A DNA stretch of 64,000 bases from Naumannella halotolerans. Lineage in GTDB: Bacteria; Actinomycetota; Actinomycetes; Propionibacteriales; Propionibacteriaceae. The DNA lies in NCBI RefSeq assembly GCF_004364645.1, contig NZ_SOAW01000001.1:682001-746000 (forward strand). Direction: 5' to 3'. The notes beneath the pieces were generated by a model. It was not told where the DNA came from. It searched no databases and saw nothing but the letters and a program-made list of their open reading frames with translations. Each line of letters begins with the position of its first letter. The stretch's first letter is position 1. A program made the position numbers and the translations under genes. Below are positions 13,006 through 59,602 of this stretch, piece after piece.

Positions 13006-13069
13006 ACTGCCGAAGCTCTGAACTGCCGAAGCTCTGAACTGCCGAAGCACTGAACTGCCGAAGCACTGA
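13006..13069. repeat. Four tandem 16-bp repeats
   Basis: Four head-to-tail copies of actgccgaagctctga / actgccgaagcactga (two of each variant) occupy 13006-13069. They lie between the DUF5703 gene and the convergent aldo/keto reductase gene. The copies differ at one position only, so expansion is recent. Confidence 0.9.
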
Positions 13070-13191
13070 CCCGTCACGACCGACTGGCGGGCCGGGTTTT
13101 TCCCGGTACGCCGCCTCGCGTTGCGGAGCCCACAGGGGGCGCCTCCCAACCGGCGCCCGATGGCACCGGTGCACCAGCGCCCCCCGATCGA

Positions 13192-26555: not shown

Positions 26556-27299
26556 TTGTTGCAGCGCAAACAACGCCTGGCCCGTGGGCAGTTCCTGGTG
26601 GAGGGACCGCAGGCGGTACGCGAAGCACTGGCCGCCGGACTGGTCGACACGGTCTTCGTCACCGAGGCCGCCGCGCAGCGCCATCCCGAACTCGTGGTCG
26701 ACGACAGTTACCTGCTCGCCGCCGAACAGTTGCAGACGCTGGCCGACACCGACAGCCCGCAGGGCATCGTGGCGATCGCCAGGGCCGACGAGGTGAGCCT
26801 GGACCGGGCACTGGGGGAGGCGCCGCAGTTGGTCGTCATCTGCGCCCAGATCCGCGATCCGGGCAATGCGGGTACGGTCATCCGCTGCGCCGACGCCTTC
26901 GGGGCCGACGCGGTCGTGCTGACCGAATCTTCGGTGGAGCTGACCAATCCGAAGGTCGTCCGGGCCAGTGTGGGCAGCCTCTTCCATCTGCCGATCGTCA
27001 CCGGCATCGACCTGGCCCGGGCCGTCGACGCCTGCCGTACCCGTGGGATGCAGATCCTCGCCGCCGACGGCGGATCGGCCGACCGGCTGGACCTGCTGCA
27101 GGCCAGCGGTGAGCTCGCCGCCCCGACCGCCTGGATCCTCGGCAACGAGGCCTGGGGGTTGCGGGCCGAGGCCGCGGCCCTGGCCGACAGATCCGTCGGC
27201 ATCCCGATCTGGGGCCGCGCCGAGAGCCTGAACCTCGCGACCGCGGCCTCGGTCTGTCTCTACCAGAGTGCGGCTGCCCAGCGAGCCGCTCACGACTGA
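26556..27299 (+). CDS. TrmH/SpoU family 23S rRNA 2'-O-methyltransferase
   Basis: A knotted (SPOUT) S-adenosylmethionine-dependent RNA methyltransferase with an N-terminal L30e-like substrate-binding domain. Visible motifs are QFLVEGPQAVREAL (family start), IRDPGNAGTVIRCADAFGAD (motif 1 with Asn and Arg), ILGNEAWGL (motif 2) and IPIWGRAESLNLATAASVCLY (motif 3). The start is uncertain. TTG at 26556 is the first standard codon, but family similarity (SARKLLQRKQR) begins upstream of it, and no ATG, GTG or TTG is in frame before rplT. CTG at 26475, which would overlap rplT, is one option. Confidence 0.85.
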   Translation: MLQRKQRLARGQFLVEGPQAVREALAAGLVDTVFVTEAAAQRHPELVVDDSYLLAAEQLQTLADTDSPQGIVAIARADEVSLDRALGEAPQLVVICAQIRDPGNAGTVIRCADAFGADAVVLTESSVELTNPKVVRASVGSLFHLPIVTGIDLARAVDACRTRGMQILAADGGSADRLDLLQASGELAAPTAWILGNEAWGLRAEAAALADRSVGIPIWGRAESLNLATAASVCLYQSAAAQRAAHD

Positions 27300-27308
27300 C
27301 CTCCTGCG

Positions 27309-27366
27309 CCGGGCCCCGCGGTCTGAACCGGGCCCCGCGGTTTGCGCCGGGCCCCCGCGGTCTGAG
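27309..27366. repeat. G+C-rich tandem repeats, 19-20 bp x3
   Basis: Three head-to-tail copies of ccgggccccgcggtctgaa and close variants follow the methyltransferase gene. A second pair, ttcacggcggcggac/ttccacggcggcggac, lies just downstream (about 27390-27420). No gene is visible in 27300-27811. Confidence 0.75.
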
Positions 27367-27430
27367 CCGACCTTCACGGGGGCGCGCCTTCACGGCGGCG
27401 GACTTCCACGGCGGCGGACCTCCTTCTCCC

Positions 27431-27515
27431 TCGTCCGTACCCCTCCGTCTCTGTTCCGCAGCATTTGCGCTCATCCGGGTCGGATGGGTGCGTTTGCTGC
27501 GGAACGGATGGGGCG
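27431..27515. repeat. Palindromic repeat element, copy A
   Basis: A 53-bp imperfect palindrome (27453-27505) with 25-nt arms GTTCCGCAGCATTTGCGC.../...GCGTTTGCTGCGGAAC, loop GGT, inside a direct repeat of about 85 bp that also includes the flank tcgtccgtacccc and the 3' flank ggatg. The arms tolerate only five differences, three of which are G-U compatible. Confidence 0.9.
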
Positions 27516-27539
27516 TGTGGGCGTACCTGTGGTCGTTCT

Positions 27540-27624
27540 TCGTCCGTACCCCTTCGCGTCTGTTCCGCAGGATTTGCGCTCATCCGGGTCGAATGGGTGC
27601 GTTTGCTGCGGAACGGATGAGGCG
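27540..27624. repeat. Palindromic repeat element, copy B
   Basis: Second copy of the same element; core palindrome 27562-27614 (53 bp), flanks as in copy A. The two copies differ at a few positions only and are offset by 109 bp. Confidence 0.9.
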
Positions 27625-27811: not shown

Positions 27812-28903
27812 TTGGACGAGATCCTCGCTGTCGCACTGCCGATCGGCATTACCGTGCTGGTCGGCGCGCTCGGAGCCGTTGCCGTCACCCTGCTCTCCGG
27901 AGCGGTGATCAAGATGGCCAGTCGCCGGCCGAGAATCCAACAGGTGTTGCGGCGCCAACTGCGCTGGCCGGGCGCGACCTTCGCCTTCACCGTGGCCGCC
28001 ACCATCGCCGGTACGGCCAGTGGTGCGATCTCCCTCGCCGGGGATCTCGGGCCGGGCATCCGGCAGACCTTGATCATCTGCTGCATCGCCGCCGGGGCCT
28101 GGTTGCTGACCAGGATCATCGCCGTCATCGGTGACAGCCTGGCCAGTGAGTTCACCACGACCACCAGCAGCGGACAGACCCGGCGGATCCGGACCCAGGT
28201 GATCCTGCTCCGACGGGTGGCGATCGCGGTGGTGGTGATCATCGCCATCGGTGCCGCACTGTTCACCTTCCCCGGTGCCCGGGCCATCGGCACCTCCCTG
28301 CTCGCCTCGGCCGGCCTGGCCTCGGTGATCGCCGGTCTGGCCGCACAATCGGTGCTCGGCAACGTGTTCGCCGGGATGCAACTCGCCTTCTCCGACGCCA
28401 TCCGGGTCGACGATGTGGTCGTCGTGGAGGAGGAATGGGGAACCATCGAGGAGATCACCCTCACCTACGTCGTCGTCCGGATCTGGGACGACCGCCGGCT
28501 GGTGCTGCCGTCCACCTACTTCACCCAGACCCCGTTCACCAACTGGAGCCGGCGTACCCCGATGATCCTCGGCACCGTCGAGTTCGACCTCGACTGGGGT
28601 GTCGACATCGACCGGATGCGCGACGAACTCGACCGGATCCTGGCCGCCTCGAAGCTGTGGGACGGCCGCTCGCAGGGCCTGAACATCACCGAGGCGACCG
28701 GTGGTTGTCTGCGGGTACGGGTGGTGCTCAGCACCGACTCGACCGACAAGGTCTTCGACCTGCGCTGTGAGGTACGCGAGGCGCTCACCAAGTGGCTGCA
28801 GACCGAGCACGCCGACGCCCTGCCGGTGAACCGGCTCACCTTCGCCGATGCCGATCCGCTACGGGTACGCACCAGCGAGCGCGCCGACGTGAGCGTGGGC
28901 TGA
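27812..28903 (+). CDS. MscS-family small-conductance mechanosensitive channel
   Basis: A 363-residue membrane protein: four hydrophobic segments in the first 160 residues, then the pore-lining helix and MscS core (SLLASAGLASVIAGLAAQS, GNVFAGMQLAFSDAIRVDD), the beta domain (VVVEEEWGTIEEITLTYVVV, RLVLPSTYFTQTPFTNWSRR) and a C-terminal alpha/beta domain. It releases solutes on hypo-osmotic shock. It is a smaller MscS-like type rather than MscL. The TTG start at 27812 has AAAGGAG about 11 nt upstream. It stands alone downstream of the repeat region. Confidence 0.88.
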   Translation: MDEILAVALPIGITVLVGALGAVAVTLLSGAVIKMASRRPRIQQVLRRQLRWPGATFAFTVAATIAGTASGAISLAGDLGPGIRQTLIICCIAAGAWLLTRIIAVIGDSLASEFTTTTSSGQTRRIRTQVILLRRVAIAVVVIIAIGAALFTFPGARAIGTSLLASAGLASVIAGLAAQSVLGNVFAGMQLAFSDAIRVDDVVVVEEEWGTIEEITLTYVVVRIWDDRRLVLPSTYFTQTPFTNWSRRTPMILGTVEFDLDWGVDIDRMRDELDRILAASKLWDGRSQGLNITEATGGCLRVRVVLSTDSTDKVFDLRCEVREALTKWLQTEHADALPVNRLTFADADPLRVRTSERADVSVG

Positions 28904-59362: not shown

Positions 59363-59474
59363 GGGACTCGCCGGCCAGCCAGCAGCCGGTCGCGTCTGGA
59401 ACACGTGCGCCGAGTCCGGTGAGCCGTGAGAGAACCGTCCGTGGGAGGTCGTAGGACCGTCGTCCCTTGAATCT

Positions 59475-59527
59475 GTTCCGCAGGATTCGCACTCAAGATT
59501 CTCTTTGAGCTGCGTTTCCTGCGGAAC
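59475..59527. repeat. Palindromic repeat element, copy C
   Basis: A 53-bp imperfect palindrome, GTTCCGCAGGATTCGCACTC.../...GCGTTTCCTGCGGAAC, flanked by tct on the left and ggatg on the right like copies A and B at 27.4-27.6 kb. Its loop differs but the outer arms are conserved. Confidence 0.85.
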
Positions 59528-59557
59528 GGATGCAGGCGGGATCGCTGTGAAAATGCC

Positions 59558-59602
59558 CGGACAGACATGACCTCGGTCGAGGACCGGGGTCATGTCTGTC
59601 CG
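59558..59602. terminator. Large bidirectional hairpin between convergent genes
   Basis: A perfect 15-bp outer stem (59558-59572 with 59588-59602) continues through a T-G pair into a 5-bp inner stem CGGTC/GACCG with loop GAG. It separates the SDR from prpC. It lacks a T-run but is the strongest hairpin in this gap. Confidence 0.7.

Follow-up and report, generated by a model that had tools for sequence, protein, structure and literature searches.

What are the long palindromes that lie between two genes in the window, here the whole 64,000-nucleotide stretch of Naumannella halotolerans DNA that was analysed? The original prediction described two 53-bp imperfect palindromes in direct copies, and offered both a REP- or MITE-like dispersed family and a structured RNA as readings.

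Palindromic elements in the window

Both palindromes are present, with arms, flanks and length as described. They are GTTCC...GGAAC sequences at 27453-27505 and 27562-27614 that read GTTCCGCAG...CTGCGGAAC, are preceded by TCT and are followed by GGATG. The full element is a 63-bp dyad, CRTCYG-TTCCGCAG-N35-CTGCGGAA-CRGATG. The count of two copies holds for A and B below; copy C was overlooked.

27448-27510, plus strand: copy A of the 63-bp palindromic element (core 27454-27504)
27557-27619, plus strand: copy B of the 63-bp palindromic element (core 27563-27613)
59470-59532, plus strand: copy C of the 63-bp palindromic element (core 59476-59526); flanking genes convergent
27431-27515, plus strand: unit 1 of an 85-nt direct duplication, with copy A
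27540-27624, plus strand: unit 2 of the 85-nt direct duplication, with copy B
26556-27299, plus strand: left neighbour, TrmH/SpoU-family RNA methyltransferase-like (translation inspected), outside the system
27812-28903, plus strand: right neighbour, MscS-family channel-like (translation inspected), outside the system

Copies A and B are found within a 0.5-kb gap between two co-directional genes, and no convincing gene lies within them, in agreement with the original reading. In each copy the half-sites point inward from both ends, and the two copies are arranged head-to-tail in 85-nt units that show 93% identity and a period of 109. The palindrome pattern matches the window three times; 100 dinucleotide shuffles gave no match.

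Other repeats are also present in the window. Past the methyltransferase stop codon and just upstream of copies A and B, positions 27311-27369 display three tandem 20-nt G+C-rich units (GGGCCCCGCGGTCTGAACCG), followed by a duplicated 16-nt unit. A short tandem repeat of ~16-nt GAACTGCCGAAGCACT-like units is at 13008-13080. An unrelated 45-bp palindrome (CGGACAGACATGACCTCGG...) at 59558-59602, ~30 bp after copy C, may be an ordinary terminator.

A dispersed family in the genome

Further copies exist: allowing for mismatches, about 50 are dispersed over the 3.47-Mb assembly to which the window belongs (G000). A 61-bp query against this genome gave 75 alignments, which represent ~45 places. The spaced pattern TTCCGCAG-N-CTGCGGAA, searched with N from 20 to 49, occurs exactly at 40 places, and the spacing is 35 in all of them. 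For statistics 48 copies were extracted; two more are known from the spaced-pattern search. The half-site consensus is CRTCYGTTCCGCAGSANNYGCASYYMW and dyad symmetry extends over 63 bp, the outer boxes being almost invariant and the inner part variable among the 48 copies. Six head-to-tail pairs are found, all in direct orientation and at 98-221 bp.

With gene calls from a crude home-made caller, 42 of the 48 copies are intergenic, between convergent (16), co-directional (20) or divergent (6) gene pairs, and six are inside predicted open reading frames that are possibly over-extended. Gaps of at least 63 bp in the window comprise 5 convergent, 14 co-directional and 5 divergent pairs. A shared regulon was considered and rejected: neighbouring genes belong to every orientation class and there is no promoter preference. 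The dispersed-family part of the original prediction is thus borne out by ~50 copies that are lineage-specific and intergenic.

Leaving the tandem pairs aside, two copies share on average 44.3 of 63 positions, against 44.4 in simulations of independent draws from one motif. Very close pairs are slightly over-represented, and beyond that there is no subfamily tree. The 48 copies show no excess of flanking direct repeats that would represent a target-site duplication. No tetranucleotide of the GTAG/CGTC type stands out at the foot of the hairpin, which is CRTCYG/CRGATG. Additional single half-sites are found at C1:634754, C1:1351460, C1:347946 and C2:283391, and two of these four follow a full palindrome at a distance of 36-41 bp and share its orientation.

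Function at the RNA or the DNA level

Folded as RNA, copies A and B are far more stable than shuffled sequences (z of -8.6 and -5.8), and this applies to both strands of each. The very stable folds and the enrichment of copies between convergent genes speak for a structured RNA, or for a bidirectional transcription terminator common to many genes. However, at variable arm positions of the 48 copies pairing is no more frequent than after the arms are shuffled, and G-U mismatches are about as common as A-C ones (86 and 68 over positions 9-25). The compensating G-U pairs noticed at the outset are real in copies A and B, but given the arm statistics they do not point to an RNA. As the arms of the copies in the window's species do not covary, this part of the prediction is unlikely to hold there; the copies show no strand bias, and an Rfam scan of the window returned only rRNA and tRNA and no family at the palindromes. 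In addition, the hairpin has no T-tract after it, the sequence is confined to one species, and an RNA would leave the bracketing of one gene family, described below, unexplained. The RNA or terminator reading is therefore very improbable.

The family of the congener (G004), also described below, displays covariation in the inner stem, with z of 2.3-2.6 at three positions; palindrome correction can also explain this. The half-sites in the window's genome vary independently, and this is as expected for recognition at the DNA level.

A nuclease gene bracketed by the palindromes

Proteins near the palindromes of the two species were compared, and one gene was found associated with the element in both. 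In the window's genome it is ~1 kb in length (C1:633681-634646), is 48 kb before the window, and is bracketed by copies at C1:633652 and 634683. The product of the congener's orthologue is 52% identical and the gene is bracketed by elements at 2507083 and 2508171; its palindrome has diverged and is likewise dispersed. In both species the last codons of the gene and the stop codon are inside the downstream palindrome.

By profile searches, the N-terminal region of the product is an AbiEi-like winged helix and the C-terminal domain a nuclease of the DUF559/Vsr type (EDxHD-like). The two closest proteins alone gave nothing over the cut-off with Pfam and NCBIfam, and the domain assignment relied on more divergent homologues and a profile. 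Pfam matches among the homologues are DUF559/MTES_1575 and AbiEi_4, with DUF559 above the cut-off in the homologue L135, and PADLOC AbiEi profiles match most homologues at 1e-6 to 1e-17. A profile search against the PDB matched the DUF559 protein 3hrl (E=0.0019) and, weakly, the mobile-intron protein 3r3p (E=0.03). E227, D259 and G273 do not vary in an alignment of 31 sequences, and R288 hardly does; these residues surround a D-...-(E/Q)-x-(D/E)-G-...-(H/K) arrangement. The closest characterised mobility-linked relatives of the nuclease domain are the EDxHD homing endonucleases.

The layout resembles that of the RAYTs, where the cognate gene is between two palindrome copies and extragenic palindromes are found in dozens (PMC2817692). 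A classical REP moved by a RAYT (Y1 transposase), or a MITE of an ordinary DDE insertion sequence, would share these two features. However, no match to the Y1 transposase profile (PF01797) was found in the window's genome, with control genomes including E. coli positive, so the RAYT-type transposase that had been suggested as a partner is refuted for this genome in its Y1 form. The missing target-site duplication counts against a MITE, and the bracketed gene is a nuclease in which profile searches recognised no transposase domain. Of the readings weighed here this is the least probable.

A defence or self/non-self role is improbable as well, if less so. The AbiEi-derived nuclease would then use the palindromes as marks, decoys or a means of titrating the enzyme. 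The PADLOC AbiEi matches and the restriction-like character of the nuclease domain are in its favour. No AbiEii partner toxin or methylase was recognised in the viewed flanks of the two closest genes, however, and dispersal with a target-flanking layout is typical of mobile elements and not of restriction systems.

Distribution and the congener

The exact pattern is absent from all 195 genomes of other genera in the family (28 genera). Among 84,980 species genomes it has one match, a Planctomycetota stretch with a non-palindromic interior that was rejected as chance. Viral contigs as carriers were also rejected; they gave 17 exact-pattern stretches, again with non-palindromic interiors, and these are attributed to chance. 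In the congener the exact pattern has only two copies, in which the interior is different.

When these two copies were used as a starting point, a homologous family of ~18 copies was recovered in the congener, with the same geometry and with AATTGTTTCCGTAGTTATGCCCGCYMW and its complement as consensus. Many of these copies are near-perfect palindromes, in which the inner stems differ from copy to copy yet remain paired. Six copies in the window's genome could be tested for position, i.e., their two neighbouring genes also adjoin in sampled stretches of the congener, and in all six the orthologous gap has no palindrome. Thus sites have turned over, through gain or loss of copies since the two species diverged. 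Conservation in relatives therefore holds for the architecture, which the congener shares, but not for the sequence, which has diverged, nor mostly for the places.

A second paralogue in the congener is flanked on either side by a palindrome of its own, which has ~11 dispersed copies besides (~13 places). In the congener a variant arm that encodes the last codons of the nuclease gene recurs in dispersed hybrid copies, and this suggests that the palindrome at the gene end was a source. In both families of that genome a GATCCCTYCGTSAGSTNATGCC-like arm is present at the 3′ end of the nuclease gene and in the hybrid copies (L118, L108, L185-L193), and the upstream copies are symmetric palindromes. 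At C1:598652/598774 and 2535515/2535633 of the same genome, copies of the two families are ~70-120 bp apart, suggesting insertion hot spots or co-spread.

The main rival to a mobile repeat is a regulatory or chromosome-organising site, whereby an AbiEi-like winged helix, as a host factor, would bind an operator and selected scattered dyads. AbiEi antitoxins bind inverted repeats and autoregulate, which favours such a site. The independently varying half-sites, the symmetric degenerate motif and the invariant spacing are as for a dimeric DNA-binding protein, and the motif-like independence of the copies also fits a selected protein-binding site, the non-tandem copies being draws from one motif. 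However, the spread over convergent, co-directional and divergent gene pairs (16, 20 and 6) is not promoter-specific, and positions are not conserved between the two species. A palindrome at both gene ends, including one within the 3′ end of the gene, a nuclease domain in the protein, and perfect palindromes with differing inner stems in the congener are also against it. Bracketing on both sides and site turnover are left unexplained, and we regard the regulatory reading as unlikely, although it is the most serious of those set against the mobile repeat.

Nuclease loci in other genera

Homologues of the nuclease are present in 45 of 58 sampled genomes of the family, in 23 of 27 genera. At 34 loci, from ~25 genera, sequence was available on both sides of the gene, and the left flank was compared with the right, with mismatched locus pairs providing the 99% control level. 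In 29 of them the two flanks share a repeat above that level. Among 210 random length-matched genes of the congener six exceed it, and the only one with a flank-repeat score of at least 40 is the nuclease gene itself. The shared repeats are family-specific and mostly long palindromes. Of 64 adjacent flanks of 450 bp, 30 have a palindrome scoring at least 26, compared with 3 of the 64 distal flanks (Fisher P=3e-8).

The palindrome differs from lineage to lineage, e.g., in L124, L125, L135, L136, L144, L145 and L153, so that the repeat is specific to its cognate locus. Palindromes of several other lineages were searched genome-wide, and those tested are dispersed. The palindrome from G059, a member of another genus, gave 152 alignments at ~70 or more places, often as ~61-bp tandems; the L120-type palindrome has one extra copy within the 191 kb of the window's genome that was examined. 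For distant homologues palindrome similarity hardly follows protein similarity, and rank correlation does not support a relationship (Mantel test, Spearman 0.03, P=0.43; Pearson 0.18, P=0.012).

In a later test with homologues from a plasmid collection, five of six have cognate palindromes on both sides. The three Arthrobacter loci and the two Tsukamurella loci agree and the Nonomuraea locus does not. One Tsukamurella palindrome has copies on 8 records, and one Arthrobacter palindrome recurs elsewhere in its genome.

Most loci have a full palindrome on each side. L129, L132 and L133 have inverted flank repeats, and in L121 (C3:263037-264155 of the window's genome) and L126 (G014) the gene is between inverted half-sites only. 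In these last two, to judge by the sequence layout, it is as if the gene had been inserted in the middle of a palindrome, either as an insertion sequence with terminal repeats or as a homing gene that splits its target.

Proposed mechanism and significance

The elements in the window are probably non-autonomous members of a nuclease-associated, REP/RAYT-like family of selfish palindromic repeats. As related actinobacterial nuclease genes are bracketed by their own palindromes, this looks like a selfish-repeat system not described before. In the open-access literature searched, no account of the association was found and no paper mentioned AbiEi together with DUF559, an absence that is weak evidence.

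The EDxHD homing enzyme I-Bth0305I dimerises on its target, which spans nearly 60 bp (PMC3943268). As this is the size of the palindrome, it is proposed that the protein binds the dyad, cuts it and causes copying in trans. A protein dimer would read the two half-sites of ~26 bp, and the nuclease domain would nick or cut the palindrome as a duplex, a cruciform or a single-stranded hairpin. Through break repair or template switching, copies could then arise in trans at new intergenic sites, or in tandem with the original. Since the coding sequence runs into the downstream palindrome, the gene together with its two palindromes looks like the autonomous unit, from which solo palindromes would derive. 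The system would work like REP/RAYT, with an enzyme of the homing-endonuclease type in place of the Y1 transposase. Binding, cutting, copying and mobilisation, and any benefit from them, are what we infer from the arrangement. Several observations weigh against this model: the dispersed copies lack a target-site duplication and resemble independent draws from one motif, the arms vary independently in the window's genome (although inner-stem positions covary in the congener), and palindrome similarity hardly follows protein similarity among distant homologues. A host that keeps intact targets alongside an active nuclease must also tolerate cutting or limit it.

Whether the AbiEi-DUF559 nucleases form a large unrecognised class in Actinomycetota, each mobilising its own dispersed palindromes of ~60 bp as a counterpart of RAYT/REPIN, is in our judgement evenly balanced. 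If they do, a function would be given to widespread AbiEi/DUF559 genes annotated as "endonuclease domain" or "hypothetical", and scattered long palindromes in high-GC genomes would be explained. REP-like repeats would have a second, independent origin with an unrelated enzyme, one in which homing-endonuclease chemistry is fused with repetitive extragenic palindromes. With a compact nuclease and a defined target of ~60 bp, the spread of extragenic palindromes could be put to the test.

Comparison with known systems

MITEs and other palindromic miniature elements (RUP, Nemis) are similarly short, non-autonomous and intergenic, with terminal inverted arms. The elements described here differ from MITEs in having no target duplication, and their presumed autonomous partner has a nuclease of the PD-(D/E)XK/EDxHD type and not a DDE transposase.

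The AbiEi antitoxins of type IV toxin-antitoxin systems share the N-terminal winged-helix region, as detected by profile. Here, however, this region is fused to a nuclease domain, no AbiEii was recognised beside the two closest genes, and palindromes are found genome-wide.

REP/REPIN-RAYT (TnpA-REP) systems also have clustered extragenic palindromes, numbering from tens to hundreds, species-specific dialects and a cognate gene flanked by two copies. The RAYT is a Y1 transposase, whereas the enzyme here consists of an AbiEi-like winged helix-turn-helix and a DUF559/Vsr-type nuclease. The palindromes are ~57-74 bp in length compared with 20-40 in REP, the GTAG/CGTC foot is absent, and the hosts are Actinomycetota.

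The EDxHD (Vsr-fold) homing endonucleases have a related catalytic domain, as indicated by the weak profile match to 3r3p, and a separate DNA-binding region. The target of I-Bth0305I, nearly 60 bp and bound by a dimer (PMC3943268), is comparable to the palindrome, for which dimer binding is presumed, and in L121 and L126 the gene lies between inverted half-sites as if it had entered its own target. Unlike these enzymes, the gene described here is outside any intron or intein, most loci consist of a gene flanked by full palindromes, and dozens of intact targets coexist.
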